Source of the DNA: Mesostigma viride
Taxonomy: Eukaryota > Streptophyta > Mesostigmatophyceae > Mesostigmatales > Mesostigmataceae
Assembly (NCBI GenBank): GCA_009746045.1
Contig: RPFO01000670.1
Coordinates: 1,137,954 to 1,201,953, forward strand
Reading direction: 5' to 3'
Length of the DNA stretch: 64,000 nucleotides
The notes below the pieces were generated by a model that worked only from the letters and a program-made list of their open reading frames with translations, ran no database searches and was not told where the DNA came from. Shown here piece after piece: positions 12,236-51,430 of this stretch. Both the position numbers and the translations under genes were made by a program. Each line of letters starts with the position of its first letter. Positions within the stretch are counted from its first letter, which is position 1.

Positions 12236-13775
12236 AAATCCGGCCACGAGGTAGCCATGGCTGTCGGAGCTCATAACTTTCACGTTTGAGCACCGAATTT
12301 AGCCGTGAATATCACTATCGCTTCGTCTTTCTAAGACGCACATGCTGATATAATTTTCCGAATCTAAAACGCAATATATGGCGAACAAACGCGCCCCGAC
12401 GCAACGCAGCCTGGCGGCCGCGCTCGGCAATGACAATACGTCTGCAGCTCCGGCTGCAGCTTCGCCATCAGGTCCGGCAGGCGGCGATGACACTAGTCGT
12501 GCACTGGTGGTCGTCCCGCAACCCCCCGGGCTTAACGCCTCGCCATCTGCATCGCCTGACCCCAAGCGCACCCGCCCAGCCGACGACACAGGAGGGTCTT
12601 CACGCCCCCAATACACAGAACCGAGCTTTCGTCCCCGGCCTTTCAAGGTCGCAGATATTACGACTGGGCCACCATTTCTCCGACCGATGCTATGCGCTGC
12701 ATCTTCCTCGGGGATTACGCTTCGCTTAACGACCTGTGCCTCCATCTCTACTCCATCAATCGCCTCCTCGCCCCGGACGGCAGCCGCTGGGCCAACATCT
12801 ACGGGCTGATCGGCAGCTTCCGCCCCCATCTCCAGCACGCCACCCTCAACTCCCTTCTCCAGCGCTCTGACGCCGAGATCTGGGCTTCACCCCTTTCCGT
12901 CCCCACCCTCCGCTCCATCCTCACGGAAGCCTTTCAGCAGCACGTGACCCCCCTTGCTGCCGACATAGCAGCAATCGGCGGCACGCTGACTGCTGAACTT
13001 CCTCACATTCCCACCGCCGCCGCCTCCACCTCCACTGCCATTTCCGCCTCCACTGCCGACATCAAAGCCCAGCTCCTCGACCTCGACCAACGCCTTCAAG
13101 CCACCACCAACGCCCTTGAGAGCTTGCATGACACCGCCGGCCTCACCGCCCAGGCGGTGAAGGACATCGCCGCCCAGCCGGCGCCTGCTGGCTCGGCCGG
13201 CGATGCTCCCTCCACCTGGGCGGACTTGCTTAAGCAGCACACCACCTCCACCACCTCCACCATCTCGGCACAACTCAAGCAACAAGCCCTCGACCTTCGC
13301 GAGGAAGCCGACATCGTCCGGCGCAGCCACAATGTCATCGTCAAGCACTTCGACCAGCCGGCAGGTGAGACCTCCACGAGCCTTCTTGAGGCATTTAAGC
13401 GCGCCATTCTTGCCCCCATGTTACTCACTGGTGAGCTGGACATGTCGGCTGTCCGCCTCCCCCGCGCGCGGGGAAGGCTGGCCCGGCACCCGTGCTCCTC
13501 ACCTTTAAGTACATGGCGGACAAGCTGGCGTTCCTTAAATGCCGCAAGAAGCTCTCGGAGACTCGCTTCACGCTGGACGACGACTTGACCCTGGCCCAGC
13601 AACAGCGGCGACGCGAGCTATGGCCGACCTACCTTCAGCTCCGGCAGAGCGCAAGGGGGAAGCCGGTATACTGGAGGGGGGCGGTCATCCACGTTGACCA
13701 CAAGCCCTGGCAGCCCCCTCCTGCCACCTCAGACTAGGAATATATATACCAGTAGTGTAGATTAGTAAGGCTTAG
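12236..13775 (+). mobile_element. ORF1-only LINE-like element, copy 1
   Basis: The 5' end carries the family signature CACGAGGTAGCCATGG and the AACTTTCACGTTTG segment; the 3' end after the ORF1 stop shares AGTAGTGTAGA with the copy at 17840-19440. No reverse transcriptase or endonuclease reading follows. The structure parallels half-LINE elements that keep only ORF1. The 3' boundary is approximate. Confidence 0.65.
12378..13737 (+). pseudogene. L1-type ORF1 protein, frameshifted
   Basis: ORF1 proteins of L1-type LINEs are trimeric RNA-binding chaperones that coat the element RNA. The start ATG opens MANKRAPTQRSLAAAL. The reading moves into a second frame near 12690 and a third near 13490. 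The middle is a long Ala/Leu/Gln-rich helical stretch compatible with a coiled coil (KAQLLDLDQRLQATTNALE). The last part (FTLDDDLTLAQQQRRRELWP, then PVYWRGAVIHV) resembles the ORF1 C-terminal domain of the Transposase_22 type. Two indels are needed to join the frames, so this copy cannot make the full protein unless the indels are sequence errors. Confidence 0.7.
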
Positions 13776-17839: not shown

Positions 17840-19440
17840 GCCCCGAGCCACGAGCCACGAGCCACGAGGTAGCCATGGCTGACGGCGGAGCTCATAACTT
17901 TCACGTTTGAGCGCCGCATTTAGCCGTGAATATCACAATCGATGCGTCTTCCTACGACGCACATGCTGATCAATATAATTTTCCGAAGCTATTACGCAAT
18001 ATACGATGAGAAAACGCCTCTCGACCCAACGCAGCCTGGCGGCTGCGCTCCGACGGCCATGAAAATACGTCTGCAGCCTCGGCTGCAGCTTCGCCCACCG
18101 GTCGGCCCAGACGGCAACGGTGACACTAGTCGTGCACTGGTGCTCGCCCAGCCCCCCGGGCTTGCCTCGCCATCTGCATCGCCTGAACCTACTAAGCGCA
18201 GTCGCTCTGCTGAGCCGCCCTGGGAAGAGATCACCTTTGGCATCAACGCCTCTAGCTTCTGGAAACGCAGCCCAGGAGCCTTCATGGACGACGTGTTTTT
18301 CGGCTCGCACGCCTCGCTTCTAGCCCTGTGCGTGCACCTCACGTCCCACAACCGCGGCCGCTGGCGATGGCCAGCTTGCCGACCCCGCCGAGGCTCTCCC
18401 AATTGTTCACCGCATGAGTCGCCCCAAGCTCCAACGCTACGCCCTCTGCTCCCTCCTTGGCCGTTCCGAAACTGCAATCTGGGCTTCGCCACCGCCCCCC
18501 CCACCTTCCCCACCGAAGCCACCATCCGCACCCTCCTTAAGTAAGGAAGCTTTCGAGCAACACGTGACCCCCCTTGCCACAGATGTGGCGGCAATGGGAG
18601 GCACGCTGGCTGCTGAGCTCCCCACCATCCCCACCGCCACCGCCACCCTCCTCGCCTCCGTCCCCCCCCCCCCCTCCGCCTCCACCGACTCCATCACCGC
18701 CCAGCTCCACGACATCGACCAGCGCCTCAAGGATAATGCAATCGCTATCGAGGTCCTGCAGAACACCGCAGGCCTCACCGCCCAGGCGGTGAAGGACATT
18801 GCCGCCAAGCCAGCCCCTGCTGGCCTGGCCGGCGATGCTCCTCCCATCACGACCTGGGCGGACTGTCATGCTTAAGCAACATACCACCTCCACCACCTCC
18901 GCCGTCGCAGCCCAGCTCCAGCGGCAGACGCTTGACCTCCGCGAGGAGGCCGAGCTCGCCAAGCGCAGCCTCAACGCCATACTCAAGAACTTCGACATGG
19001 AAGAAGGTGAGAATTCTGAGAAGCTTGCACGTGCGTTTGAGAGCAAAATCCTTGCACGCATGGGCCTTCTTGGTGAGATTAAGCTGACCGCCCACCGCCT
19101 CCCCCACGCGCGGGGTAAGGCAGGGGCGCCTCCGCTTCTTCTCATCTTTGAGAGCCCCGCGGACAAGATTTCGTTTCTCAGACGCCGCAAGCGGCTCGAG
19201 AAGACTCACTTCACCGTGGACGACGACTTGACCCTGGCGCAGCAACAACGGCGACGGGAGCTATGGCCGACCTACCTCCAGCTCCGGCAGACCAAGGCGG
19301 GCCAGCCGGTGTACTGGAAGGCCCGGGCGGCCATCTACGTCGGCCACAAGCCCTGGCACGCGACCCCCTCGACCACCGCGGCCCCAGCGACCCCAGCAGC
19401 CCCAGCCTAGGGGAATACAGCAGCAGTAGTGTAGAATAGT
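17840..19440 (+). mobile_element. ORF1-only LINE-like element, copy 2
   Basis: Same 5' signature (CACGAGGTAGCCATGG, AACTTTCACGTTTG) and same 3' block after the stop codon as copy 1, again with no RT or endonuclease. If the tandem units are its 5' UTR the element begins at 17462. The 3' end is approximate. Confidence 0.65.
18006..19410 (+). pseudogene. L1-type ORF1 protein, frameshifted
   Basis: The start ATG follows ACGCAATATACG, as in copy 1. Frames must be joined near 18060, 18360, 18540 and 18870. From 18860 onward the frame is clean and gives a helical segment (QRQTLDLREEAELAKRSLNA) and the C-terminal domain (FTVDDDLTLAQQQRRRELWP, then PVYWKARAAIYV), the most conserved part between the two copies. 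Pro-rich runs in the middle come from a CCN-rich tract. RNA-binding role inferred from the L1 ORF1 resemblance. Confidence 0.7.
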
Positions 19441-21034: not shown

Positions 21035-21649
21035 GGACTATTGGGGGGACCCCCCCCCTTTGGCGGGGGTCATGGGGGACATTGTTATGGGTTGATTATG
21101 TAGTAGTTGTGAGTCGCAGTTGTAGGTAGCTCGTGCGTAGGTCACAGGTTCGTGTGAGGGTTGGGGATGCTTGGGTTGCGTGGGTGGCTCGGGTATGGTA
21201 CGTAGGCGGGCTTGCCGGTGGTCGGTGCAGCAGTGTCAGTTATGGTTGAGTGGACAGCTGATTGGTTGCCCCGGAGGCCGGAGTGGATGGTTATGCTTCA
21301 CGTGGATGGTGGGGTGGAGTCATCGTATGTTGGGGCAGCGGGGGGCGGGGTGGGCGGGGTGCAGTGGTGTAGGGGAACCTCGTTGTGGGGCGGTAGGTTT
21401 GTTTAGTAGGTGGTTTGTTATGTTGGTGTGGAAGGTGGTGTATGTAATACGGAAGGGTGGTAGTCAGATAGGTTGGTTTGGGGGGACTCAAGGTGGATGG
21501 TCGGGTGGGTCATCGGATGGTTTGGGGGAGGAGGGCGGTGTTACGGTGTTGTGGGGGACCTCAGCGTGGGGGCGAGAGTAGTCCGTAGTCAGGTGGGGAT
21601 GGATAACGGCATGTGGATGTCTGTGACGTATATTTGTGGGTGGGGCGGG
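20550..21649 (+). repeat. G/T-skewed minisatellite region with a (TG)n tract
   Basis: The plus strand is strongly G and T rich over 1.1 kb. From about 20576 to 20850 a degenerate unit of about 125 bases recurs (GTGCAGGCGTGCCTT, GGGTGGGTTGATGGCTG). A pure TG dinucleotide tract lies at 20978-21033. Long open frames on both strands reflect the bias. The copia-A element is inserted at its right edge and similar composition resumes at 28450. Confidence 0.75.
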
Positions 21650-22232
21650 TGTTAAAATCGAGTTCGAATTTTATTAAATGATAATTTTACGGTAATCAGG
21701 TTACAAACTCAGAGCCAAGCCCCCAGCTTAATTTACCAGCGCAACCATAGCCATTGCCAGCATAGCAGCAACAACCGTTGGACCGCCGCAACACAATGCT
21801 GGCTTTTGGATCATCATCGTCTGTCAGGCGGCTAGGCTAGCCTGCAGCGCTAGGCACCGACGCAAGCCTGGGAACGCATCTCCGTTACACATCTCCGTTA
21901 CAACACACCAGCCGAGTACCGACCAATCGACACACACCAGTATCTCGCCACTTGTCACGCCAGCCGGCAGTACCCAGAATCCTAGTCCGCACCTCAGTAC
22001 CGGACCAGTGCCGCACAGCCAAAGTCTAGGGCGTAACTCACGAGGCATAACGCACACAGCGTAACTTAAATCGTTGTGGATCACACAAGCCAAAATTCAG
22101 CCGAACCTCAAAACGGCTAAGTCCCAATGCGCCGAATTAACCCGAACGCCTCGAACCACAAAATGGCTAAGTACCGGCACACAATCATTAATTATTTCCA
22201 TGTGACTGCGAGCTGAAACCTATAATATAACA
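21650..22232 (-). mobile_element. copia-A 3' LTR
   Basis: In element sense it begins TGTTATATTATAGG and ends CGATTTTAACA. It is preceded by the purine-rich GGGAAAAAGCGG at about 22239-22250, the likely polypurine tract. Confidence 0.9.
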
Positions 22233-22706
22233 CCAGCCGCTTTTTCCCGAGCAGTCACACATCCCACCAATCATTATCTCACTCAGCTCGAGAGTAACCG
22301 ACAGACACCTCACCAGGAAGCACTAACACAGGACGCTATGTACTAGGGGAGTCCGCACCCCTCACTTGGCGCCCATTCACGCCCTGGTAGTACAACCAGC
22401 ATCTGTCAGTAAGTCAAGTAAGCAAGCGAGAATACAAGACTGATCAAAAGACCACCCTCGGCTCCAACACCAACCACACCCTGAACCCACGGACTTTCAC
22501 ACATCACCAACCACAGTCCCCGCCTCCGATCAGGTCCTCAACCCAGGACCATCCCATCAGGTACATCCCCACCAAGATAGAGTTATCCAACCGTACTGGG
22601 TCATCCTGAGATGGGCTCGATCCAGGGGTCATTCCCAGCCCACATGTAATGCGTCCCAACGCCTGCCAGCCTGAAATTCTCATGCCACATGGTCCATTGC
22701 CCAGAT
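22233..22706 (-). other. copia-A 3' untranslated region
   Basis: 474 bases between the pol stop and the 3' LTR; no coding sequence seen. Confidence 0.7.
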
Positions 22707-25700
22707 CTACATCAAACCCTCCAGCAGTCCTTGCAGATCCCCGAGAGAGCCCCCCATGACCATCCGCAGGAGGCGATACTGGTCGCGCGCCCCAGCAAAC
22801 AGCTTGGTCAGCGCATCAGCCGGGTTGAGCTTCCCAGGTAGATGAAGCACGCTCACTGCGTATGACAGTTCCTTGAGTAGTAGGAAATCCAGGTCGCGCG
22901 TCCTGGACAGGCTGTTGAGAATGAAACTCACAAGCGGCTGACTGTCGGTATGCACAGTCGTGGTCAGTACCAAACGAGCATCCAGCCACTTGCCCATCCA
23001 GCGCAGAAATTGCTCTAGATACAGGGACGCCTTGATGCACTCACACACCCCGCGACACTCATTGGTATCCGATCCAACTGCCACCCTGCGGCACAACCTA
23101 GAGTACCACCCACAGAGCGAACCATTGCCCTTGGGGTTGGAGAGCACAAACAAGCCGCCCATGCGAGCTCTCGTCTTGGTGAGCTCCCTGCCCTCGCCAG
23201 ACGTGTCAGCAAAGCAATGCAACACAATCGGCTGAGAAAGAGACAAACCAGAAAGTACTACACCCTGGCTCTCAGCAACATACTGCTTGATCACAGACGG
23301 AGAAACGAGAGCCAACACCTCATCCACAGTCCTACTTAACACCAGCAGGTCAGGCCCACACACCGCTGCCATCCAGCCGAGCTTGCCACGCAATCTGCTC
23401 CACAAACCCTTGGCGCACAACTCCTCCACATCGCGCATGAGCTCCTCCCTGTACTTGTCAGGAATACCCAAGTGCATCCGGTGCTTACCCGACACCACCC
23501 GCAGGGTTTGCACCACCCCGCAAACACCCGTGGCGTCTGCGGCCCCAATTGCTGCAACTCACCCACTGGGAACCGCCGCCCAATGTCAGCATAGAATGCA
23601 TGCAAGGCTGACCGCGAAGCAATGACACGCAGTCATCCCCATGCAGTTGTACAAACATAGGACCAGACGGCATCCGCGCCACGAACAACGATGGGTCGTA
23701 GGGAGATACCTCAAACTCTGCGATCTCACCCAACGCACGCATGAGGGTTATCCTCCAAACAATCGACGCGCTCTGCAGACCCTCTATAGCCTTGCACAGA
23801 CCCATGAACTCAGACGTGACCACCTCCTTCCAGAACGGCGGCGTCTGCACCACTAGAGGCGGAGTACCCTCCCACACCTCTTGCGCCACTTCCTCGCTAG
23901 AGTTAGGGAATGCGCGCTTGACATCAATGGACGCACACGCGTAGTCCTTGCCTTCGTCCAGAAAGCTAAGAAAAATCATGCTAACCATCCTGAACGTGTC
24001 CCATGCCATCCCTGGGGTGTAGAGCTCCTCCTTGGCCAGCGGGCTAGTACCTGCAAACTCTTGTGATACCGGCCTCACGTAGCAGATCTCCACACCTGCC
24101 TTCACCTTGTGGGACAGCACCATCTTCAGCGGAAGCACCCTAGCCCCCTTCGGCACCGTGTCAAGCGGTTCATACACCCCGTAGCCCTGCCACTCCTCAA
24201 GTGCCTTACGGAATGCACACCACCAGCTCGAGAACCCACTAGGCGTTGACATCTGCAGTACAAGCTCAGGGAATGTGATCGGGGAATGTGCGGCTATGTC
24301 CCTCTCAGTGATTCCTAGGCTGTTGGGATGCAGTAATGCAGGCATAACCAGGTCAGCAGCTGGCGGGAGATCAGCGCCCCACGCTACACCCTCCGTACCC
24401 GACAGTGCTGCTAGCCTAGCCACTGTGCTGCAAATGCGACTGAGAGGCTCGACTGACTTGTAAGACTGTAGCTCTATCGACCCGTGACCTACTCGGGTTA
24501 GCAATGAGCTCTGAATCCGCACATCAGGATGGTCCAGGAAAGGAAGTCCCAAAATGGCGGGTCCATCATACCCCTCGAGCACGCAAAACGGCGTCTCTCT
24601 CCCCAAGATCGTCAGCATTACCTCACCCCGCACCGGCATCCTCACTAACCCGGAGAAGTCCTCCACATACCTCCACCTGGACGCAGTGCACGGCAGATGC
24701 CTGGCTACTCCCTCACCCAGCAAGCACACCACCGCGTCAGTGTCCACTTCCAATCGACAACTACCCAGCCCGTCCGAATACCAGTTGGCAAGCTTAGAGA
24801 CCGCAGCCACCAGCTCACCTGGCTCACCTCTCTCCTCGACAGCCTCGCTGTCGTCCATGGGGCTGTCGCCCTCACTCGGCAATATAGGCCCCGCGTCGGC
24901 CAACCCGCCAACGCCACCAGCCTGCTGCCCCGCACCTGCGGTCAATGCCCCAGCATCGCCGGCCCGTGCAACCCCACCTTCGGCTGGCTCACCCGCCTCA
25001 CCGGACCGTGGTACCATCCCACCTTCGGCCACCCGCTCCTTGCCGGCCCGCGAGATGTTGCCCCCCAACTGCCGCTGCTCGCCCACCGTGGCAGCGCGTC
25101 GAGCTTCCTGCAGGCGCTCCACTAGGCGGGCTAGTACCGCGGCGCGCTGCTTCTCCTGGTCGTCAACGGCTGGGGCAACCCCCGAACCGCCCGACCCCAC
25201 GCTAGCGGGACCGCCCTTGGAAGGTGGCAACCCAGCTTCCGGCGAAAGGGAGCGAGTAGGTTGATCAGGCCCACCCCCCTCCCTCACCCCCCCTGCAGCC
25301 CCGGGATCCCCCGCCTCACCCCCAGCCTGCACACTGGGGTCCCTAACACCTTCCTCAGCGGGTGGGTCTGGCGGCCCCAGCCCGTCATAGTAGGGGCGCA
25401 GGTGTTTCCACGCTAGCAGCTTGTCGTAGCAACTGTCCTCTAGCGCTACCGAAGCAAGCATGTGATCAGGATCGATCTCCTTGACCACACCGGGACCTCT
25501 CCATAGGCCCCGTTTTCCATGACTGCCCTCCGCGTAGGCCCAGACCCTGGCGTTCACGCACGGCACATAAACCTGTCCACGTCGCAGGTCCATCTTTACC
25601 ATGCGCACGTAACGATCGCTCAAATAATCCCTGTACTCTTCCACAGCCTCAGGTGACAACAAGCCCATCTCCACTCCCTTAGGCGTGACTGCCACCTGCC

Positions 25701-26598
25701 CACCCAACACCTTGACCATTACACGGTTGTTGAGACATTGCTCTATCTCATTGCAGATCACCAGCCTCTCACGATACGAGCCTGTTCTCATCTTCTCCAT
25801 GCATGCCATCACCTGCTTCGATGTCTGTATGTGGCGCTCGACAAGACCCTGGTGCTCGTGGTCAGCTACCCCAGCAAGTTCTATCTTCCCCACACCCGGC
25901 TCACCCACACAGCACTCAAACTGCTGATCGCACTCCAACACAGATGCCACACCAAACTTGGACCTGAGGAGACGCAATGCATCACACAAGTGCTCCTTCA
26001 GCTTGCGCTCAAGTGGCACCATGACCTTGTACCTGGAGAACCTGCCCACTGCAAGCACGTAGTCTCTGTCGTCATACATGAATACATCACACTGCACCAC
26101 ACCTCGCTCAAACTCTGGCCTACGTGCATGGAACTTGTGCGGTTTAGGTGCCCGCTCCTGACATTTGCGACACCTTAACCACACCTGCTTGCACATATCC
26201 ACTAAGTCTGTGAACCCTAGCATGGCTGCCCACTCCTCACCCGCATGCCCATGCCCTAGTGCTTTGTGTAACCGTGTGGCCATGTTAAGTACACTGAGCG
26301 ACCCGGCTGCCTCACCGCACGCCGCACCATTCACATGTGCTGAACTAGGGTCTGGTGAGGTACCACCTACCGGCGGCCCGCCCGCTGCGGTGTGCCCCCC
26401 TGCAGCGCCTCCAACCCACTCATTCCCCATCCCCTGAGACACTGCCCTTCCCCCTTCTGCAGCTGTCCCATGCTCCAGGTGGCCCCCCTTCTCCCTAGTG
26501 CCTGCTAGCACCGCCACCTGAGCACCCAGGTAGGGTGAGTACACCTGGGGGGTCGAGCTGGCCTCCCCTGCACCAGCCCGCATGCCAACCTCACCTAG
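22707..26598 (-). pseudogene. copia-A pol: integrase, protease, RT, RNase H (frameshifted)
   Basis: The frame opens directly after the gag UGA. Numbering from the Met at 26583: a zinc-binding His/Cys cluster at 106-141 (LHKALGHGH, CRKC); integrase core with D166, D219 (CDQQFECC) and E249 (GLVERH); a Gly/Pro/Ala-rich linker of about 410-590; a retropepsin-like protease at about 605-690 (LEVDTDAVVCLL, then GPAILGLPFL); RT with D887 (SIDVKRAF) and HGDD at 981-984; RNase H ending NPADALTK. The first frame stops at 23485; two single-base shifts between about 23600 and 23515 are needed to reach the RNase H frame (23516-22707). Canonical copia has protease before integrase, so the order here is unusual. 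Confidence 0.85.
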
Positions 26599-26810
26599 TC
26601 ACCTACGGCCACCGCCCTGGGCCGCTGGGCACAGGTGAGTGTCCCTCGCAAAGTGCCCTGGCTGCCCACACCTGTGACACACCGCTGGTGCTTGCGAGTT
26701 GGCGTTGCTGCGTGCCTGGAGAGTGTCCTTGTGCCTGTGATAGCAATTGGCTGCCATGTGTCCCGACTTCCCACACACAAAGCATGCCCCATGCACCGCC
26801 GGCTGTGCAC

Positions 26811-26854
<44 letters not shown>

Positions 26855-27826
26855 GAGCGCTGTTGCTGCTGATACGGCGACGCAGCTGGCTGTTGTGCAT
26901 GCTGCTGCTGCTGCGGGTATGGCTGCTGCCTACCTTGCTGCCATCGCTTCCCAGGCATGCGCTGCGCTCGGCTGAAGCTGCCCTTATTGCCCCTACGCAT
27001 CGGGCCCCCATTGCCCCGAGGCCCGCTGGGCCCCGCGCCGCTAGAGCCACCACCGCCCGCAATGGCGGCCACCTTGCCCCCATCCGGCGCTTTAGCAGCA
27101 CCACCTTGGGCACCACCAGAAGAAGGAATGGAATTCACAGCGACAGGCGGTAATGCAGGGGAAATCAGACCCAGCTCATTGAGCTTACCTTGGGCCCGCA
27201 GTTGGGCCACCATGTCCCTCTCCTCACCCTCGACAATGCCCGTGATAACCTCAATCGCCTTATTGAGATCATCCTCGGCTTTCTCACGCTTGAGAGCTGC
27301 CATGGCATTCTGGAAATTAAGGTCCTTGGCATTGCGAACATAACGGTCCACCACCGCCAGTTCCACCACCGGAATGCCATCCTTTACACTCTCGTTTCTC
27401 GCATTTCTCAAAGCGAGAAGGTCGAGTGTGTAGGGACGCTTCGGCACCCAATTATAAATGCCAACATGACGAGACTTGGCAGATGCTTTCGATTCAAGAA
27501 GTGCTGCACGCAACCTACCTCCAATTGCAGCGCCCTCGATTTTCTCGTCACGGCAGGAGCGCAGGCAATTTACTAGAATGGCGTTGTCGGCTCTAAACAT
27601 TCCGGCATCCCGGAATAGCCCATACAGATCCTCGGTTTTATCTGCATGATCCGCCACAAACGCCTCAAACCTGTCACAGAAATCCTCTACCAATGTCACT
27701 GCCGCATCAAGAGGAACTGTCCCGACTCGTGTTTTTGCACAGCTCTATCAAATTCTTCTCATTTCTTAAATCCTTCCACCCAGTACGCTTTCTCGAATCC
27801 GTCTCTTCTTGTTCTTGATCCGACAT
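26599..27826 (-). pseudogene. copia-A gag (nucleocapsid with two CCHC knuckles), frameshifted
   Basis: Gag packages the element RNA into virus-like particles. The best ATG is at 27826, 40 bases inside the 5' LTR border, opening MSDQEQEETDSRKR; a single-base shift near 27700-27730 connects it to the main frame (VEDFCDRFEAFVADHADKTE). A helical capsid-like part is followed by Gly- and Gln-rich low complexity (a CAG-type run at about 26813-26860) and two zinc knuckles, CFVCGKSGHMAANC and CHRCGQPGHFARDTHLC; the second has an extra residue before its last Cys. The stop is UGA followed by CUA GGU, with pol continuing in the same frame. Confidence 0.85.
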
Positions 27827-27866
27827 TGCTACGTTTTTCCTTATTAATTAACCCCGTCCTAGTACA

Positions 27867-28449
27867 TGTTAAAATCGAGTTCGAATTTTATTAAATGATA
27901 ATTTTACGGTAATCAGGTTACAAACTCAGAGCCAAGCCCCCAGCTTAATTTACCAGCGCAACCATAGCCATTGCCAGCATAGCAGCAACAACCGTTGGAC
28001 CGCCGCAACACAATGCTGGCTTTTGGATCATCATCGTCTGTCAGGCGGCTAGGCTAGCCTGCAGCGCTAGGCACCGACGCAAGCCTGGGAACGCATCTCC
28101 GTTACACATCTCCGTTACAACACACCAGCCGAGTACCGACCAATCGACACACACCAGTATCTCGCCACTTGTCACGCCAGCCGGCAGTACCCAGAATCCT
28201 AGTCCGCACCTCAGTACCGGACCAGTGCCGCACAGCCAAAGTCTAGGGCGTAACTCACGAGGCATAACGCACACAGCGTAACTTAAATCGTTGTGGATCA
28301 CACAAGCCAAAATTCAGCCGAACCTCAAAACGGCTAAGTCCCAATGCGCCGAATTAACCCGAACGCCTCGAACCACAAAATGGCTAAGTACCGGCACACA
28401 ATCATTAATTATTTCCATGTGACTGCGAGCTGAAACCTATAATGTAACA
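27867..28449 (-). mobile_element. copia-A 5' LTR
   Basis: 583 bp, matching the 3' LTR except for one visible base (ATGTAACA against ATATAACA at the outer end). The base sequence after its inner end (TGTACTAGGACGGGG in element sense) does not match the usual initiator-Met primer site, so the primer is unidentified. Confidence 0.9.
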
Positions 28450-29513
28450 GCGGGTATGGAACAGGCAGGGGAGTGGGGCGAGTGGGAGTTAGCGGGGTGG
28501 AGGGTGCCGGCATTGTGGCGGGATGGTTGGAGGCACATGGACACACGTAATGGCAAGAGTAACTGCATGCATAGCAACATTGGACCAGCTGTTCCTAGAA
28601 CATCTGCAACCCTCAGCATGCAACAACCAACAGCAACTGACAACTGCCGACAGTGACAACGTTAGCAAGATGTGACGCCAAGTCCACTGGAGACCCCGAT
28701 GTAATTTCAGGTGGTTCCCAGTCCTGCCGTGTACTTCACTTAATTCGGGGCCGCACACTTCGTTTGGTGCAGCAAAGGCTCGTGGCCGGTATGGTGGTAG
28801 CCGGTAGGCTTGATTGCCATGGATATCCGGCGTGGCGGAGGGGCCGCAGGGAGCGAGGCACCATGGAGGAGGCGATGGAGCGATTGAAGAAATGTAGGCA
28901 GTAGCCCGGTGCCCAGCAGCAGCGGAAGTGGAAATATTGCTTGACGCGGTGCGTGCGGTGGGATGGGTAGGCACTGCCTGCCATCACCCTGACATTTCCT
29001 GTTACGGCACAGCCCGCAGTCGGCCATATTGGAGCAGACGGGCCTTGCTGCGAATCGAGGGCGTGATATTGCACGGGAAAAATCATGCCGAGAGTCTCAG
29101 GGCGTCTCGCATGGCGACAGCTGCAGCGTGAGGGCCGACAAGCTCGAGATGCAGGTCTCGTCGGTACATGTGGGCCACTGGTGAGGTCGCCAATGTGATG
29201 GAGCCCTCTCCATCGTGCCAGTCGGACATCACTCAACAGCCAACAACGATCTTTTGTGCGACCAGCAGCCTCCGAATTCCGTAAGTCCGGACTCCGGACG
29301 CAGCGCCCCTCTCCAACGGACTGCACGCGGAAATTTGAAATTCAGCCCGAAGGGCACGCGCCGCGCCAGAGCTGGCACAGGAAGTGGACGTTGCACGTGA
29401 ATTGGAGAACGCCACCGTGACAAAGACCAAGGCGATAACGGCAGGTACGCAGCCTTGGCAGCGCCATAATTTTACTTGGACACCATGCGCGGTGCTGTAG
29501 GCAGCCATATATA
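28450..29513. other. G/T-rich DNA resuming after copia-A; no gene recognised
   Basis: The first 100 bases continue the G-rich skew interrupted at 21649. Several medium open frames (for example 28736-29326 minus) match nothing I know. Confidence 0.5.
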
Positions 29514-29821: not shown

Positions 29822-30520
29822 AGTTAACGCCAAGCGCATTGGCGTGATCCTGATTCGGCATATCTCTGCGATTCCAGCGGCACCGGAACGAGTTCATTCC
29901 GACAAGTATCAAGAAAGTTATGGCGTTCCGACATCCCGGTCGCGCGCGAGCGCGAGCCGGCTGTTCTTCTAAGTCGGACGTGAATATTTGCCGACGACAT
30001 ATGGGGTCGACAGTAATTCCTGGGCTGACAGGAATTAGGTGCTGTACCTACGACGGTATTGGATTGATACGTCGTACGCAGGAAATAGGAACCTTAACCT
30101 GTGGTCTGTTGGTACCGCAGGCTTAGTCCTGGACTTCTAGGTGCAGATGCAATAGTCACTGTGGACTGTGCTCTGTGGTCACTGTGCCTGTATGGCAGAC
30201 CTACTGTATAGGAGTTGGGCGCTGTACAGGTAGTGAATACTGTACCGGGGGTGTTATTACTGAGCAGGCCTCCTAGGCTGCTCAGGACTAGCAAGCACAG
30301 TGCACAAGTATATAAACAATAGGCCAGTGCCAAATGGGCATCTCTTGCGAGCCCGCCTCACGTGTTGTGCCTTGACTTGGCAAGCGCGTGTACAAGCCTC
30401 AAGTGTGTGAGCGCTGTAAACATTATCCGATTTTAACAAAGCTCCGTTTCCAACCATATTCACACATTGCTGCATTGCAACCATATCCTTCACATTGCGT
30501 GTGATAAGAACGTTTAACTC
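29822..30520 (+). mobile_element. copia-B outer element 5' LTR
   Basis: 699 bp, beginning AGTTAACGCC and ending AACGTTTAACT, so the short terminal inverted repeat is AGTTAA(A)CG rather than TG...CA. Full copies also occur at 37051, 44940 and 54149, a partial one at 53856. The GTAAT target duplication fixes the outer border. Confidence 0.85.
30309..30317 (+). promoter_or_regulatory. TATA box in copia-B LTR
   Basis: TATATAAAC, preserved in the LTR at 54149 and in inverted copies; likely sets the start of the element transcript about 200 bases before the LTR end. Confidence 0.55.
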
Positions 30521-30610
30521 AAATTACAACCAGTCTCAGCGGAACGGCCAGGAGGGTCGTTGCCGGTTGCGGTGTGCAGCGTTGACGACGAGGAGCTCGT
30601 CTGGTGGTGA

Positions 30611-31529
30611 ATGGTGCAGGAGGAACAACGGCAGCAGGATTTCCGGTTTCGGCAGTCTGCTGGGGGTTCGATTTCTCCTGAATTACGTCGTGTCGTTCGG
30701 GATCTATCTTTATTGCTTGCAGATCGTCCGCCTGTAATCGCAGCTTCGTGCAATTCGTCGACGACCAGGTCGAAGATTGGGAGCGAATTCTGCGACACGT
30801 ACAAACCATCGTCATTCCGGAGCACCGGAGCATCGACGACCTTGAGCAGGAGCTTCACGGGTTGGTCGGCATCCAGACGGTGATTACTGCAGTAGCAGAG
30901 CGAGTGCGGACGGAGTTGGCGGCAAGGCGAGGCGAGGTTGCGGAAGCAGCTGGCGCAGGGCGACACGAGTTTGTACCGACAGTAGCGGGCGCGGGAGTAC
31001 CACGTGCTTTCGCAGGCGGCATCGGCGACGAGGGTGTTGCAGCGGGGCCAGTTAGGCGTGAACGACGCGGAGCGGAGCACTACAGGCGGCTTGCAGAGGT
31101 CGGGGCGACAGCGGAAGCCATCACCGGAGGACAGCGCGCGACAAGAGTCGGCAGGTTTCCGGAGAGAGTAAGAGTTCCTTTTCAGGAACTGCCCCCGCCC
31201 CTTCGCGTTCGTGTGACGCGTTGGGAAGAGTTTGCACCTCTTGGGTACGATAGTGACCTTGAGGAGGAGCAGGGGGTGTCGCTGGGCTAGGCGACGAGAC
31301 ACTTGGCGACCACGAGGTGCCAAGATACAATCCGCGGGGTGCCAACGACGGGTTGTCACCTGTCTACTTTACCAACGGTGACGATTCAGTCATCGCGGGC
31401 CGACAGCGGGTCGACGACGGCGCAGCAGGTAGCAGGGTACCAGAGCTGATTGTGGTGAGCGACAGCGACGACGACAGCGACAAGGAGAACCAGGACGCGC
31501 CTGGGGCCAGCCGTGGTGGTCTTGCCTGA
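30611..31529 (+). pseudogene. copia-B extra ORF upstream of gag (ORF0), frameshifted
   Basis: Standard copia elements have no ORF here. The ATG opens MVQEEQRQQDF; the frame breaks at about 30736 and 31270 by single-base indels when compared with the second copy (51431-52350), where one different break is seen. Together they show a reading of about 306 codons: a helical N-terminal part (DDQVEDWERILRHVQ), an Ala/Gly-rich middle, and an acidic end (PELIVVSDSDDDSDKENQD). The hydrophobic IVV followed by acidic and Ser residues looks like a phospho-regulated SUMO-interaction motif. No known domain recognised. Position between LTR and gag suggests translation from the genomic transcript. Confidence 0.6.
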
Positions 31530-31631
31530 GTGGTAACACTTGGCACTTTCCTTTCTTGTTCAGTAGCTTATATTGCTTTAATTGCTGCTTGGCCACTTGG
31601 CTGGCTGTAGCAGATCTGAACAGAGGCCATC

Positions 31632-32819
31632 ATGGAGGATGGAGCTATCAACCAACAAGCGGGCTTTATGGGCTTCGCGCGGCGCGGCGCTGGGCTGGAT
31701 GGACGAGATGGACGCGATGGACGCGGTGGACGCGATGGACGCGGGGACGGCCAGGCGCTGGGAGACCAGGCTGAGGTGCCAGATAATCAGAGCCAAGGAT
31801 CGCAGGGCGGGCAGCACGCGCCAGCCGCAGATCAAGCGGCGCCTAAGCGACCAACCGTTGCTGAGGGGTACGCGGTGCTAGGCCAGTTTCAGTCCATCAA
31901 GGACAATTGGCAGCCCCGGGATGCTGAGAGGATGTTAGAGGACATGAACTTGTACACGGAGATATACAACGGTGACAAGCTTCGCATCCTGGCGTCTAGT
32001 GCCTACATACGGCAGTCGGCGAGGCGGCTGTTCAAGTTTGTTCGGGAGCGACACGCGGCGGGGGACACCTGGACGGCGTTTATGACGCGACTCAGGTCGT
32101 TCCTGAGTGACAAGAGGACCATAGATGGGTCCCACCTGAAGCAAGAATACCTGGACTACAAGCCCATCAAGGGGCAGCTAGTGGTCCACGCCTTTGAAGA
32201 CTTCGTCAAGCTGAGGGAGGACGCCATGGCCAAGGGCTTCTTCGTCGCAGATCGGATGGCCATGGGCGACTTTCTCAAGTCGCTGCAGCTGGATCCGGTC
32301 ACCATGGATAATGTGACCATCCACATGCGACAGGTCCATGGCTGGGCAGCCATGACGGACCAGTTGTATGAGTGTTTCAGCGGCAAGTACGTGGGTGGTA
32401 AGCGCCCTCGTCAGGGTGATGAGGAGGCCACTGAACCCACGGTTAAGTCCATGAGGGGATCGGGCCACGGGGGCCCAGCGCCCTCGAGAGGGCCTGAGAC
32501 CTCTTCAAGGGGTCGAGGAAGGTCCAGGAGGGGGCGTGACAGAAGGGCTGGACGGGGGACCCCGCCGAAGTCGGGACATCCACAGTCCCAGTTTGACTTC
32601 AAGAGGGTGGGTGGTCCTCCCAAGGCTGGGCCCAGCAGTGGGACCTCACGGGACATCAGTCAGGTGGAATGTTATTTCTGCCAGGGGAAGGGTCACTTCA
32701 GGAATGAGTGTCCCTCGTACCTGAGGCAGGAAGGTCAGAGCAAGCCAGCTCAGGGTGGCAGCAAGGACAAGGCTGGTCCATCCCAGGACAAGGGCAAGGG
32801 CAAGGCTGCTGATCATTGA
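31632..32819 (+). CDS. copia-B gag (outer element)
   Basis: 395 residues, ATG at 31632 opening MEDGAINQQAGF. A DGR/G repeat tract (residues about 25-40) precedes a helical capsid-like region (about 75-255) and a basic, Arg/Gly-rich stretch. One CCHC zinc knuckle near residues 345-358 (CYFCQGKGHFRNEC) marks nucleocapsid function. It ends ...KGKAADH at a UGA followed by CUU GAG. The pol frame continues without shift, pointing to stop-codon readthrough for Gag-Pol. This copy is intact. Confidence 0.9.
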   Translation: MEDGAINQQAGFMGFARRGAGLDGRDGRDGRGGRDGRGDGQALGDQAEVPDNQSQGSQGGQHAPAADQAAPKRPTVAEGYAVLGQFQSIKDNWQPRDAERMLEDMNLYTEIYNGDKLRILASSAYIRQSARRLFKFVRERHAAGDTWTAFMTRLRSFLSDKRTIDGSHLKQEYLDYKPIKGQLVVHAFEDFVKLREDAMAKGFFVADRMAMGDFLKSLQLDPVTMDNVTIHMRQVHGWAAMTDQLYECFSGKYVGGKRPRQGDEEATEPTVKSMRGSGHGGPAPSRGPETSSRGRGRSRRGRDRRAGRGTPPKSGHPQSQFDFKRVGGPPKAGPSSGTSRDISQVECYFCQGKGHFRNECPSYLRQEGQSKPAQGGSKDKAGPSQDKGKGKAADH

Positions 32820-35800
32820 CTTGAGCCTGCACACATCCCTGAACCCTGGAGGGTGCCCCCAGGGGTGTGTAATGAAGCTGCTAGTGACAGCAGTGAGGGG
32901 CAGCCCCATGCTCTAGTGAAAGAGCCTATTGGACACGATGGGGCAAGCTTGGTTACCACAGAGAGTATGCCAGCTGTAGCTGCAGTGGTTACTCGCCAAC
33001 GTGCCCGCCATGGCGGTGCTGAGCCTGAGGTAGGACCTGGTGATGTGGACCCAGGTGGATCTCAGAAGCATTCTGACCGTGCAGGACTGGCACAGGATGG
33101 TCAGGATGAGGATAGGGCTGGAGACAGTCTGACAGGCACGACCCTGGTGCCTCCTGTACATAAGGGATCTGTACATACCTTGAGTGCTAATAATGACAAT
33201 AAAAGGTTTTCTCTCTTGTATGACATTGCCTCAAGGTTGCATACCATGTTTGGCCATGCAGCTCAGTCTTTGCAAGTTGCTAGACGGCTGGGAGGAAGTG
33301 AGTTGTACTCCATCTGCCAACAGGTTGCTCAAGCTTGCAAGTGCAGGCTAGTTGCTAGAAAGCCCAAGCAGTCTCATGCCAGGACTCCTATTTTGCAGCC
33401 AGGCCATGTGCAGGTAGATATTCAGAGAATCAGGGGTTTGAAGCTGCTGGTGGCAGTGGACAGATATACCAAGTACAAGACCCTAGAGATCCTGCCTGAC
33501 ATGGAGAAGCCTACATTGATTGCTGCTCTGAAGTTGACAAGGAGCAGGTACCCTGGGTTGGAGTTGTTGCAGTGTGACATTCAGTTTGAGTGCTGTGAGA
33601 ACCTGCCAGAGTTTCCAGAGTTGCTGATTACACCCAGGGAGAGCCACGGCCAGCAAGGGGTGGTGGAGAGAGCCATCCAAGAGATCAAGACTGTGCTGCT
33701 GGTGGAGAGGATTCCAAGGACGTCATCTGCCATTGTGACATCTGCATGGCTACGTTCTGTGGAGGACAGGCTGAACCTGAGGACTCCCATGTTCTTTGGT
33801 GACATTGCCATCAATCCTCTTATGCTGCATACCAGGATGCTGCCAGCTGATGCTGAGCAGGCATGGAAGGAGAAGCTAGAGGCCAAGTTCCTCAAGCTGA
33901 GGCAGAAAGACAAGGGCTGGAGTGTCCTAGAACCTAACGTTGGACAACAGGTTGTTGTGTGGAAGGAACCAAGCTTTCCAGGGAAACGTGGCAGCTGGCA
34001 TGATGGGGTGGTGACCCGAGTAGAAGCCGCTGGCCATAAGTGCTGGGTGGCCATTGATGGCTCCCAAGCAGTGCACCGTCTGTCCTGGTCAAAGATCCGT
34101 CCCCGGGGAGGTAATCAAGGAGACCTCTTCCAGGTGCCCGCTGGTGTACAAGGCGGGGGTGACGTGGAGCTTCCTGATCAGGGTGCTACAGCTGTATCGA
34201 GCCCTCAGGGTGACCCTGGCCCGGCCCCTGGGGTACCTTCACATACGGTGGTTGGGCAAGCAGGCGGACAGGCTGCACCTCCGGAACGGCCCGACACCAG
34301 GCCTAGGGGTGTGCGTCTATCAGATATTGTACAGGCTTTGCAAAGAGCCAAGAAGGAGCCTAAGGTGTCCAAGCTTGTCCAGTTGGATGAACCTGAGGTA
34401 GCTGCCATGGAGATAGATACCAATGCACAGGTTTCTGTCATGGGACCTCAGCATACAGGAGAACTGCTGGTCGGAGAACCAAGTTGCCCCTGGGTGTCTG
34501 ATTTCAGTGGTAGGACGCATCTAAGGGTGTTGGGAGAGGTTACTGCCCCTGTCATGGGTGTGGATGTGACCTTCCTTGTCCTAGAGGACTATGATGGCCC
34601 TGTGATTTTGGGTCAGAATTTTCTGGGCAATCCTGGGATTTCTATCAGAGCTACAGCTCTGAGAAGAGATGGCTGGGGGATGATTCCCCTAGAAAATTTC
34701 AGGACAACATTTCCAGTCAGGTGCAGGGCCAAGCCGGTCAAGGGTGTAAAATGGGATGAAGGGGAGGTGCCCCCAGCGGCCAGTTTGGTGATTCCAGCTG
34801 TGTTGCACCCCAGCAGTATTGGCATAACTCACAGGAGCCTTGCTGCACACTCTCCTTTGACATATGACCAGCTGGTCCAAGAGATGAGCTCGCCTACTTT
34901 GTTTGAGGCTTGGAAGCTCGCCTTCTCCAAGGCATTGGAGGAGTGGTTGCAGTTTGAGTGTGCTGCACCAACAGACAGACGTCCCCCAGCATCAAGGAAG
35001 CTTGCTTTGAGATTTGTGCTGAAGAGGAAGGTTGTGGATGAGGTATCAGTGCCCCATGTCAGGCCTGTCCTGAATGAGTATCACGGCACGGGGAGTCTGC
35101 CAGGAGAGGAGCTATACACGCCAGGGATGCTACACGACACATGGAGAATTTTGCTATGTCTCTACGTGGGGTTGCTGAACAGGGGAGCAGCTATGTCATC
35201 AGTGCTGCTGGACTTCAAGAGGGCATTTTTAAAATCTGATCCAGAAGTGGCCAGGAGGGTGTGGAAGCAGGATGAGCCTTACTGTGTTGAGGTGCCTGCC
35301 ATCTGGAAGCTGGAGCTGCATCAACAATTCCTGGTTATTCTGAAGGGCCTGGAAGGACTCAGGTCGAGCCCAATCATCTGGAGACTCACGCTGCAGGAAG
35401 CTCTGATCAGTGAGTGTGGCTTGAGAGTGTCTTCAGTTGATCCCTGTTTGCTGCTGGCCCAATGGGAGGGTCTGCCAGTGTATGCTAGTTTGCATGGAGA
35501 TGATCTGCATTTGCTAGCCCCCACGACCTGGCTGAAGAAGTTTATTCCTGTCATCAGTGGCAAGTTTTCACTGGGCAAGGAGCTGTGGCAGGAGCCCAAC
35601 AAGCCTGTAGTGTTCTGTGGAATGCAGGCTACCCTGTTCAGGAGGGACGGGGAGTGGAGTATCAGGCTTCAGGCTGGAGGAGATTATAAACAGACCATTG
35701 TGAAGGCCTTGCCAGAGAAGATCACCCAGGCTGCAGGACCTGAGTTGAGAGGCATGTGGGCCTGGTTTGCCAGCATCTGTGGTCCGTCTTTGATGGTCCA

Positions 35801-36410
35801 TAGCAGAATGCCTGATGAGGTGCTTGAGGATGAGAAGCCTCGAGTCATAGCCCGGTTGGTGGAGAGTACCCCTGATCTGATTTTGTCTGGGATTGACTTT
35901 GCCCAGCCTATCACCTTGGAGATCTTTGTTGACAGTTCCATGGATGCTCGCCAGGTTACCAAGGTCAGGGGGAGATCTGCTGCTCTGTTTGCTTTTTATC
36001 AGAGCAGGGCAAGTTTGTTCAGCTGGTACAGCAGACTGCAGAAGAGGGTCTGTATCAGTTCAGATGTGGCAGAATGCAGGGCCATATGCGAGGGGATCCA
36101 GTCCAGCCTGTACATAAAGGAGTTAATGCTGGAGCTGGCTTCAGTTACCCCTTGGACCTTGCAGATGGAGACGTTGTTGCTAACAGACAGCATGGGTATG
36201 GTCCAGTTTGTTCACAAGCAGCTGGCCAGGAGCCGGGACCTGGATTATTTGTTGCTGAAGGAGTTGGCCAGTTTGGTTGACTTGAAGCATATCCCTGGCG
36301 AGGAGAACCCTGCTGATGCATTGACAAAGCTGCCACACAAGGCCCCAGCCCAGTACAATGTACTGAGGAAGCTCATGAATGCTGACTGTCAAGTCGGTCT
36401 ATCTGTCTAA
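32820..36410 (+). CDS. copia-B pol: integrase-protease-RT-RNase H (outer element)
   Basis: Open from the gag UGA to 36410, same frame as gag. Numbering from 32853: His/Cys zinc-type cluster at 130-164 (RLHTMFGH, C155, CKC at 162-164); integrase D189, D242 (CDIQFECC) and E272 (GVVERA); protease at about 515-595 with DTNA at 522-525 and ILG at 585-587; RT with D787 (LLDFKRAFL) and HGDD at 881-884; RNase H with D1027, E1074 and D1112, ending ENPADALTK. RT and RNase H are copia-like, but the protease follows the integrase instead of preceding it. The frame is intact, and two near-identical copies lie at 39885 and 48106, so the family has been active recently. No ATG stands at the head of pol. Confidence 0.9.
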   Translation, partial: LEPAHIPEPWRVPPGVCNEAASDSSEGQPHALVKEPIGHDGASLVTTESMPAVAAVVTRQRARHGGAEPEVGPGDVDPGGSQKHSDRAGLAQDGQDEDRAGDSLTGTTLVPPVHKGSVHTLSANNDNKRFSLLYDIASRLHTMFGHAAQSLQVARRLGGSELYSICQQVAQACKCRLVARKPKQSHARTPILQPGHVQVDIQRIRGLKLLVAVDRYTKYKTLEILPDMEKPTLIAALKLTRSRYPGLELLQCDIQFECCENLPEFPELLITPRESHGQQGVVERAIQEIKTVLLVERIPRTSSAIVTSAWLRSVEDRLNLRTPMFFGDIAINPLMLHTRMLPADAEQAWKEKLEAKFLKLRQKDKGWSVLEPNVGQQVVVWKEPSFPGKRGSWHDGVVTRVEAAGHKCWVAIDGSQAVHRLSWSKIRPRGGNQGDLFQVPAGVQGGGDVELPDQGATAVSSPQGDPGPAPGVPSHTVVGQAGGQAAPPERPDTRPRGVRLSDIVQALQRAKKEPKVSKLVQLDEPEVAAMEIDTNAQVSVMGPQHTGELLVGEPSCPWVSDFSGRTHLRVLGEVTAPVMGVDVTFLVLEDYDGPVILGQNFLGNPGISIRATALRRDGWGMIPLENFRTTFPVRCRAKPVKGVKWDEGEVPPAASLVIPAVLHPSSIGITHRSLAAHSPLTYDQLVQEMSSPTLFEAWKLAFSKALEEWLQFECAAPTDRRPPASRKLALRFVLKRKVVDEVSVPHVRPVLNEYHGTGSLPGEELYTPGMLHDTWRILLCLYVGLLNRGAAMSSVLLDFKRAFLKSDPEVARRVWKQDEPYCVEVPAIWKLELHQQFLVILKGLEGLRSSPIIWRLTLQEALISECGLRVSSVDPCLLLAQWEGLPVYASLHGDDLHLLAPTTWLKKFIPVISGKFSLGKELWQEPNKPVVFCGMQATLFRRDGEWSIRLQAGGDYKQTIVKALPEKITQAAGPELRGMWAWFASICGPSLMVHSRMPDEVLEDEKPRVIARLVESTPDLILSGIDFAQPITLEIFVDSSMDARQVTKVRGRSAALFAFYQSRASLFSWYSRLQKRVCISSDVAECRAICEGIQSSLYIKELMLELASVTPWTLQMETLLLTDSMGMVQFVHKQLARSRDLDYLLLKELASLVDLKHIPGEENPADALTKLPHKAPAQYNVLRKLMNADCQVGLSV

Positions 36411-37050
36411 AAGCTGAGAGCTGGGTGCTTAAGTCTCTGGATATCAGGCTGGGAGCTTGATTGTACATAATCCTGAGCACACCTTGAGGGGTGAGACATG
36501 TCTCTGGTGTGGGAATGTCTGACATTGTCTCTGATGGAGAGATGTCTATCTGGGGTTTTCATCTCAGTCTGAGGTTTCCCCAGATCTGTGGTTTGTGGGC
36601 GGGGTTCGATTCCCTGGTGCCGTCTTAAGGCGGAGTTTCACGGACTGGCTGACCCATCCACCATGCTGGTGAGGTGGCGACAGGTCCCCTGATTTTCCAC
36701 GGTTGGAACGAGTATGGGAGCTTGTGTTTTGCATGTGCTTCGCGTAGATGTTGTCTCTGGTTCGATAAGGGGCAGCAGACCGGCGCCGACTCCCGTCTGG
36801 GGGTCAGCAATGTTTTCTGATGAGCTGTTGTGGGTGATCTGTGGGGTTTCGCCTAAGGTCCTGAAGGTTGTACATACTTCTCAAGTTCTTAGCTGAACAC
36901 CTATGGGCTGCCCCAGTTGGCCAACCTCTTGTACATGGGTAACACAACGAGCCTCCCGTGAAGGGATAGGGACTCATTGTAATTTGTTTGTGCTCCTGAG
37001 CCAGTATGGGTGCTATGTACATATAATAAGGAATCCAAGCTGACTGTCAT
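36411..37050 (+). other. copia-B 3' untranslated region (outer element)
   Basis: 640 bases after the pol stop, repeated inverted at 37930-38544 and 47512-48105. It holds a perfect RNA-polymerase-III B-box-like GGGTTCGATTCCC at about 36602-36614. The outer element resumes at 54041 after the inner insertion. Confidence 0.75.
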
Positions 37051-37747
37051 AGTTAACGTTCTTATCACACGCAATGTGAAGGATATGGTTGCAATGCAGC
37101 AATGTGTGAATATGGTTGGAAACGGAGCTTTGTTAAATCGGATAATGTTTACAGCGCTCAACACTTGAGGCTTGCACACGAGCTTGCCAAGTCAAGGCAC
37201 AACACGTGAGGCGGGCTCGCAAGAGATGCCCATTTGGCACTGGCCTATTGTTTATATACTTGTGCACTGTGCTTGCTAGTCCTGAGCAGCCTAGGAGGCC
37301 TGCTCAGTAATAACACTCCCGGTACAGTATTCACTACCTGTACAGCGCCCAGTTCCTATACAGTAGGTCTGCCATACAGGCACAGTGACCACAGAGTACA
37401 GTCACCACAGTGATTATTGCATCTGCACCTAGAAGTCCAGGACTAAGCCTGCGGTACCAACAGACCACAGGTTAAGGTTCCTATTTCCTGCGTACGACGT
37501 ATTAATCCAATACCGTCGTAGGTACAGCACCTAATTCCTGTCAGCCCAGGAATTACTGTCGACCCCATATGTCGTCGGCAAATATTCACGTCCGACTTAG
37601 AAGAACAGCCGGCTCGCGCTCGCGCGCGACCGGGAAGTCGGAACGCCATAACTTTCTTGATACTTGTCGGAATGAACTCGTTCCGGTGCCGCTGGAATCG
37701 CAGAGATATGCCGAATCAGGATCACGCCAATGCGCTTGGCGTTAACT
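37051..37747 (-). mobile_element. Inner copia-B 3' LTR
   Basis: Begins on the plus strand AGTTAACGTTCTTATC and ends GGCGTTAACT. In element sense it is preceded by AAGAAAAGAAAGGATTGG, the expected polypurine tract. Confidence 0.85.
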
Positions 37748-38544
37748 CCAATCCTTTCTTTTCTTGAGCTGTAGCAGCTCACACAAGTCTACATACAAAC
37801 ACACACAATGGGTACTGGACATCCTCCCCGACTACAAGTCACAACCCACTGGGCATGACAGTCAGCTTGGATTCCTGGACATCCTCCCCGACTACAAGTC
37901 ACAACCCACTGGGCATGACAGTCAGCTTGGATTCCTTATTATATGTACATAGCACCCATACTGGCTCAGGAGCACAAACAAATTACAATGAGTCCCTATC
38001 CCTTCACGGGAGGCTCGTTGTGTTACCCATGTACAAGAGGTTGGCCAACTGTGGCAGCCCATAGGTGTTCAGCTAAGAACTTGAGAAGTATGTACAACCT
38101 TCAGGACCTTAGGCGAAACCCCACAGATCACCCACAACAGCTCATCAGAAAACATTGCTGACCCCCAGACGGGAGTCGGCGCCGGTCTGCTGCCCCTTAT
38201 CGAACCAGACACAACATCTACGCGAAGCACATGCAAAACACAAGCTCCCATACTCGTTCCAACCGTGGAAAATCAGGGGACCTGTCGCCACCTCACCAGC
38301 ATGGTGGATGGGTCAGCCAGTCCGTGAAACTCCGCCTTAAGACGGCACCAGGGAATCGAACCCCGCCCACAAACCACAGATCTGGGGAAACCTCAGACTG
38401 AGATGAAAACCCCAGATAGACATCTCTCCATCAGAGACAATGTCAGACATTCCCACACCAGAGACATGTCTCACCCCTCAAGGTGTGCTCATCAGGATTA
38501 TGTACAATCAAGCTCCCAGCCTGATATCCAGAGACTTAAGCACC
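37748..38544 (-). other. Inner copia-B 3' region with a 60-bp tandem duplication
   Basis: Reverse complement of 36411-37050 plus the LTR-proximal part that the outer element shows at 54041-54148. The 60-base block starting GGACATCCTCCCCGACTACA is present twice (about 37814-37933), only in this copy. Confidence 0.8.
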
Positions 38545-39863: not shown

Positions 39864-39884
39864 TAAGCACCCAGCTCTCAGCTT

Positions 39885-44662: not shown

Positions 44663-44939
44663 GCTGGTGAGGTGGCGACAGGTCCCCTGATTTTCCACGG
44701 TTGGAACGAGTAGAGGAGCTTGTGTTTGGCATGTGCTTCGCGTAGATGTGGTGTCTGGTTCGATAAGGGGCAGCAGACCGGCGCCGACTCCCGTCTGGGG
44801 GTCAGCAATGTTTTCTGATGAGCTGTTGTGGGTGATCTGTGGGGTTTCGCCTAAGGTCCTGAAGGTTGTACATACTTCTCAAGTTCTTAACTGAACACCT
44901 ATGGGCTGCCACAGTTGGCCAACCTCTTGTACATGGGTA
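44658..44939 (+). other. Displaced plus-oriented piece of the copia-B 3' region
   Basis: Matches 36663-36942 of the outer element in orientation. Left junction at CATGG(A/T)GGATGG with gag; right junction at GGGTAA with a minus LTR. Confidence 0.8.
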
Positions 44940-51378: not shown

Positions 51379-51430
51379 TGCCGGTTGCGGTGTGCAGCGT
51401 TTACGACGAGAGGAGCTCGTCCGGTGGTGA

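Follow-up and report, generated by a model that had tools for sequence, protein, structure and literature searches.

Retrotransposons of the window

The window analysed here is a stretch of 64,000 nucleotides from Mesostigma viride (assembly GCA_009746045.1, contig RPFO01000670.1, positions 1,137,954 to 1,201,953, forward strand). It contains retrotransposons of two families, designated copia-A and copia-B, whose features are collected in Table 1. IN, PR, RT and RH stand for the integrase, protease-like, reverse transcriptase and RNase H domains.

Table 1. Features of the copia-A and copia-B elements, in window coordinates
Feature	Position	Strand	Basis
copia-A 5' LTR, TG...CA, 583 bp	27867-28449	-	blastn self-match, ends read
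copia-A 3' LTR	21650-22232	-	blastn self-match to 27867-28449
Target site duplication CCCGC, 5' side of copia-A	28450-28454		
Target site duplication CCCGC, 3' side of copia-A	21645-21649		
copia-A gag ORF, two CCHC zinc knuckles	26599-27699	-	zf-CCHC 2.4e-9, two stretches
copia-A pol ORF (integrase, retropepsin-like domain, RT)	23485-26583	-	ORF list, RVT_2, alignment
copia-A integrase HHCC zinc finger, H106-C141	26161-26268	-	alignment
copia-A integrase core, D166/D219/E249	25837-26088	-	alignment; region without Pfam match
copia-A retropepsin-like domain	24514-24756	-	alignment and profile
copia-A DTDA	24733-24744	-	within retropepsin-like domain
copia-A ILG	24547-24555	-	within retropepsin-like domain
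copia-A RT, LHGDD motif	23626-24159	-	RVT_2 8.5e-7 at residues 809-986
copia-A RT connection end and RNase H, second frame	22707-23516	-	ORF list, alignment
copia-B1 gag ORF, one CCHC	31632-32819	+	ORF list, Pfam
copia-B1 pol ORF, intact, 1185 aa	32853-36410	+	ORF list
copia-B1 integrase core, D189/D242/E272	33417-33668	+	rve 0.063, alignment
copia-B1 retropepsin-like domain	34398-34655	+	alignment and profile
copia-B1 DTNA	34416-34427	+	within retropepsin-like domain
copia-B1 ILG	34605-34613	+	within retropepsin-like domain
copia-B1 RT	34923-35588	+	alignment with RVT_2-matching relatives; B itself without RVT_2 match
copia-B1 RNase H and NPADALTK tail (presumed)	35928-36407	+	alignment, motif
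copia-B2 pol, intact, 1185 aa, same domain order as B1	39885-43442	-	
copia-B3 pol, same order, 5' end unlike B1/B2	48106-51654	-	
copia-B2 5' LTR-like repeat	44945-45765	-	823-column match, 98.2%, to 3' copy
copia-B2 3' LTR-like repeat	37055-37876	-	

Copia-A occupies 6.8 kb of the minus strand and is bounded at both ends. Its paired LTRs (583 bp each) are 99.83% identical in a blastn self-comparison of the window, and it is flanked by a 5-bp target site duplication, as expected of an LTR retrotransposon. In this copy a frameshift beyond the RT box appears to divide pol.

Copia-B is present as three pol copies, of which B1 and B2 are intact (1185 aa each) and B3 (1182 aa) has a different 5' end. 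B1 and B2 are separated over their full length by 4 synonymous and 3 amino-acid codon differences; over the 1080 codons shared with B3, the differences are 9 synonymous and 2 amino-acid (B1/B3) and 9 synonymous and 1 amino-acid (B2/B3). All of these numbers are small, and the B1/B2 counts give no sign of constraint. A target site duplication was looked for around the LTR-like direct repeats of B2 and none was identified. The copia-B pieces lie within large inverted and nested duplications (29822-54846, about 97-100% identical), for which recent rearrangement and assembly artefact are candidate readings.

Order of domains in pol

Alignment of copia-A, copia-B and a third protein (P0001, described below) gave one common order: HHCC finger, D/D/E core, D-T-x-A...ILG domain, and RT. 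RNase H and an NPADALTK tail follow RT and are carried in copia-A by the second ORF; in copia-B1 this last part is taken to be RNase H and tail on the strength of the motif, the NPADALTK tail being copia-like. The landmark residues are H106, H111, C138, C141, D166, D219, E249, D-T-D-A 614-617, I-L-G 677-679, and RT D887 and DD983-984 in copia-A, and D189, D242, E272, D-T-N-A 522-525, ILG 585-587 and RT DD883-884 in copia-B. The preliminary description had placed the retropepsin-like segment of copia-A after the D/D/E core and before RT, and had given copia-B the same order; the alignment bears out both placements (for copia-B in the intact B1 and B2), and the residue numbers assigned to the motifs (DTDA 614 and ILG 677; DTNA 522 and ILG 585) are exact.

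Pfam finds the same succession in P0001 from the N- to the C-terminus, with all matches below the curated cut-offs: rve at 214-265 (E=0.15), gag-asp_proteas at 557-628 (0.086) and RVT_2 at 751-923 (0.014). Recognition of the integrase by rve is weak here and in the copia-B region (0.063); the copia-A integrase has no Pfam match, and an integrase profile matched no chain of the PDB. Integrase and protease-like domain are both covered by three independent sequences only (A, B and P0001).

The two families had been called unrelated-looking, which does not agree with an identity of 34% over aligned pol; copia-A and copia-B are thus two branches of one lineage. The related proposal that the order belongs to a lineage and is no accident is upheld, since it is shared by two diverged families and by the independent full-length P0001. 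The gags of copia-A and copia-B show no significant likeness (best E 0.47).

Three side observations concern the same proteins. The spacing from the second D to the E of the integrase is 30 residues in all three sequences, shorter than the D35E spacing usual for integrases. The RT active-site box reads LHGDD in 7/7 RTs that reach it (A, at 23632-23646; B; P0001; P0003; P0004; P0005; P0007), versus YVDD in copia elements, and is possibly a mark of the lineage. In the C-terminal region of the copia-B integrase (33981-34106), Pfam gives a weak, sub-cut-off match to Agenet (Tudor-like, E 0.0068), possibly a chromatin-reading tail; copia-A has no Agenet match in Pfam.

Relatives

Relatives were searched with the full copia-B pol (at least one match, P0001) and with a PR-RT-RH profile (at least six matches, including P0001 and P0002), in each case from about 8000 candidates sharing most words, and there may be further relatives beyond these. 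P0001 (1214 aa, from an ENA contig of 6224 bp) is 66% identical to copia-B over 98% and has the same domain order; P0002 is 99% identical to copia-B. The RT part of P0001 used as query gave two matches, P0001 itself and P0007. No relatives were found in viral, prokaryotic, phage and plasmid collections.

P0007, a protein of 686 aa whose source code Mesvir1 presumably denotes Mesostigma viride, starts at DTKA...LIG and continues into RT and RNase H. P0006, from Prorocentrum lima, holds the second half of the domain (...ILGQNFL) followed by a truncated RT. As both stop short of the integrase, they bear on the PR-RT joint alone. An identity of 86% over 277 residues between P0003 (Mesvir1) and P0004 (P. 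lima) means that contamination or transfer has to be considered.

RVT_2 was matched by 5/8 proteins (P0005, 3e-7; A, 8.5e-7; P0004, 1.9e-4; P0003, 2.3e-4; P0001, 0.014), none of them reaching the 31.6 bits that Pfam sets as its curated cut-off. No RVT_2 match was obtained for B, for P0007 or for P0006, whose RT is truncated. Two loci retrieved with a degenerate copia-RT DNA pattern as yardsticks of ordinary copia were dropped, as neither contained a copia ORF.

Conservation of the domain and search for an upstream protease

Between copia-A and copia-B, identical residues amount to 35/86 in the protease-like domain, 40/88 in the PR-RT joint, 96/294 in the integrase and 85/216 in RT; the protease-like domain is therefore conserved to the same degree as RT. 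The P/G/Q-rich linker between integrase and protease-like domain reaches 29/88, so that the domain does not stand out by identity alone. The connector between the protease-like domain and RT (62/89 between B and P0001) shows the same level of conservation as the domains, and PR and RT may accordingly remain together as one unit.

The spacer between gag and integrase, where the protease of copia elements usually lies, is unconserved (9/87). The pattern D[ST][GA][AS] is absent from the three coding-strand frames of element A (21650-28449) and of the B2 stretch (37051-45765), and occurs twice in the B1 stretch (29822-37876), both times upstream of the gag start. The statement that nothing protease-like stands between the gag zinc knuckles and the integrase is confirmed by the low identity of the spacer and its empty motif scan, and no better protease upstream of the integrase was found in the A, B1 or B2 stretches. 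If an aspartic protease is encoded at all, it is thus most likely this domain.

Identity of the retropepsin-like domain

At least part of the domain is present in five sequences (A, B, P0001, P0007 and P0006); P0002 to P0005 begin C-terminal to it. Profile matches are specific but lie below the cut-off, and they are confined to one member: the P0001 domain, taken by itself, matches gag-asp_proteas (E=0.0016; 19.4 bits, the cut-off being 28.2; profile positions 14-91 of 92) and Asp_protease_2 (E 0.091, positions 14-90 of 90), while 4/5 members, and an X-masked consensus, have no Pfam match.

A profile of the five sequences, run against 177635 distinct PDB sequences, gave three matches at E<=10, all of them proteases: HIV-1 protease 3mws (E 0.69) and two chains named 'protease, tethered dimer' (E 2.5 and 3.2), neither of which has a single passing stretch. 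These matches lie over the portion leading up to and including ILG, and exclude the catalytic triplet. The PR-RT-RH profile had as its sole PDB match a cysteine desulfurase (E 1.1).

The usual retropepsin triplet is D-T/S-G with a conserved Gly, and that of copia is of the DSGA type. Here the corresponding residues are DTN in B and P0001, DTD in A and DTK in P0007: the four sequences that include it all keep Asp and Thr, and likewise the Ala that comes next, and Gly stands at the third position in none (0/4), so that the elements carry DTxA in place of both the clan AA triplet and the DSGA-type motif. Across the domain, A is 37% and P0007 36% identical to B.

Structure models were of low confidence both without an alignment (model 1, pLDDT 42.1) and with the five-sequence alignment (model 2, pLDDT 43.6). 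Foldseek on the low-confidence model 2 gave no match at E<=0.001; retroviral proteases were 9 of the best 50 of 120 matches, a result given no weight in the assignment. Overall, the resemblance to retropepsins is weak in score but specific, and makes a good though indirect case that the domain would adopt a retropepsin fold.

The gag-pol junction

In both families gag and pol lie in one frame and are split by a single UGA. In copia-A this codon (26599-26601) is followed by CUA G (junction window 26595-26601), and in copia-B1 (32817-32819) by CUU (junction window 32817-32822); the junction of copia-B reads the same at both 32811 and 53632. High readthrough in human cells has UGA CUA (G) as its consensus, and readthrough is regulated by UGA CUA in Sindbis virus (PMC4973966). 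The contexts of both families are thus candidate readthrough signals, and readthrough of the gag UGA is plausible. Gag and pol of Candida albicans Tca2 are likewise separated by one UGA, but its flanking sequence alone is insufficient for readthrough in yeast, and the abstract describing Tca2 mentions no unusual domain order (PMC2194720).

Comparison with known elements

In a large survey of plant elements the order is GAG-PROT-INT-RT-RH in copia and GAG-PROT-RT-RH-INT in gypsy (PMC6317226). The same survey removed every element with an unexpected domain order as likely mispredicted (PMC6317226); surveys of this kind would miss a lineage such as the present one. With Ty1/copia (Pseudoviridae) the elements share an integrase (weakly recognised by rve) before RT and RNase H, an RT of the RVT_2 type and a CCHC gag, and copia-A also shares TG...CA LTRs with a 5-bp duplication; they differ in that the protease-like domain comes after the integrase, whereas the protease of plant copia elements comes before it (PMC6317226).

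With Ty3/gypsy and retroviruses the elements have in common a PR directly before RT-RNase H and a protease end of the ILGxxFL type, and the best matches of the domain are gag-asp_proteas and HIV-1 protease. They depart from the gypsy order GAG-PROT-RT-RH-INT (PMC6317226) in having the integrase first and an RT of the RVT_2 type. No integrase follows RNase H, and pol ends soon past it. A lineage with a changed pol order was reportedly described by Goodwin and Poulter in 2002 (cited in PMC2774666); to judge by the title, these deuterostome elements are gypsy-like with a copia-like order, and not elements with integrase before protease.

The ICTV profile of Belpaoviridae places the integrase upstream of the protease in Pseudoviridae generally (PMC8742986). 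We take this remark as loose wording, because the whole family is meant and because it contradicts the plant survey (PMC6317226). Searches of the open-licence literature for this order, by titles and abstract starts, yielded no description of IN-PR-RT elements, and passages of PMC5689174 and PMC2633040 had no bearing on it. To that extent the earlier remark that no described class with this order was known stands; it is weakened by the ICTV remark, which read literally is this very order (PMC8742986). Troyka is a recently proposed LTR superfamily, but its duplications are 3 bp long, its ends are CG...CG and its domains follow the ordinary gypsy order, RP-RT-RH-IN (PMC12440569).

Interpretation

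The elements probably belong to a copia-like LTR lineage of the order gag-(UGA)-IN-PR-RT-RH, in which PR is a retropepsin-like putative protease. In such an element ribosomes would produce mostly Gag, with readthrough of the UGA giving a minority of Gag-IN-PR-RT-RH. Two PR domains would associate inside the particle and cut the polyprotein; PR would probably remain fused to RT through the conserved PR-RT connector, the integrase being released from the N-terminal side of PR-RT. The domain would have been either relocated within a copia element or brought in from another source. Its ILGxxFL end and its matches lean towards a protease of the gypsy/retroviral type, in a comparison that included no copia-type protease. 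A fuller reading, to which we would give slightly less than an even chance, is that of a recently active and distinct lineage, perhaps of superfamily rank, in green algae and possibly dinoflagellates, with the order gag-UGA-IN-PR-RT-RH and a working D-T-N/D/K-A protease that remains joined to RT and is maybe derived from a retropepsin of the gypsy type, not of the copia type.

The most serious alternative, which we nevertheless consider unlikely, is that the domain, though folded as a retropepsin, is dead or repurposed as a structural connector between integrase and RT, processing being left to a host protease or not taking place. The missing Gly of all four triplets would fit a loss of activity, and the adjoining PR-RT joint is equally conserved (40/88). 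Retention of D, T and the following Ala in 4/4 sequences, despite the 37% and 36% identity of A and P0007 to B, argues against it, as does the empty motif scan of element A, which would leave that element seemingly without a protease of its own.

That the domain is not a retropepsin, DTxA and ILG being a chance likeness in a lineage-specific linker, is improbable. Weak scores, low-confidence models and the 4/5 members without a Pfam match are what such a linker might give, but all matches of the domain, two Pfam families and three PDB sequences, are to aspartic proteases of this type, in register, and the domain is conserved like RT. Nor do controls reproduce these matches: 0/9 shuffled P0001 domains gave a Pfam match, and 0/3 altered domain profiles (two permuted by column, one reversed) matched a retropepsin of the PDB, their sole PDB match in total being a riboflavin synthase (E 1.2).

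An artefact or one-off rearrangement (frameshift, nested insertion or assembly error), which the inverted, nested repeats around copia-B and the apparent frameshift in copia-A might suggest, is hardly credible, given the same order in A, in the intact B1 and B2 and in P0001 (another contig, 66% identity), and the 99.8% LTRs and 5-bp duplication that bound copia-A.

Domain order in pol is the feature that tells copia from gypsy and by which elements are classified or discarded. A copia-like lineage with a third order, protease between integrase and RT, would show that the protease is movable within pol, and would make it possible to test what influence the position of the protease has on polyprotein processing. 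It would also provide an example of an aspartic-protease-like domain lacking the active-site Gly, a residue conserved among retropepsins.

Other features of the window

No Rfam or tRNA matches were obtained within the window, and reading on from the 5' LTR led to no primer tRNA assignment. Long arrays of short repeats (61300-63600 and 58421-59224) are open in several frames (WMDG on the minus strand, PSIH on the plus strand). Diverged repeats, about 75-83% identical, at 12243-13712, 17861-19358 and 58128-58510 point to another repeat family. An ORF at 8338-9096 carries a CBS domain (8.8e-11) and is perhaps a host gene.
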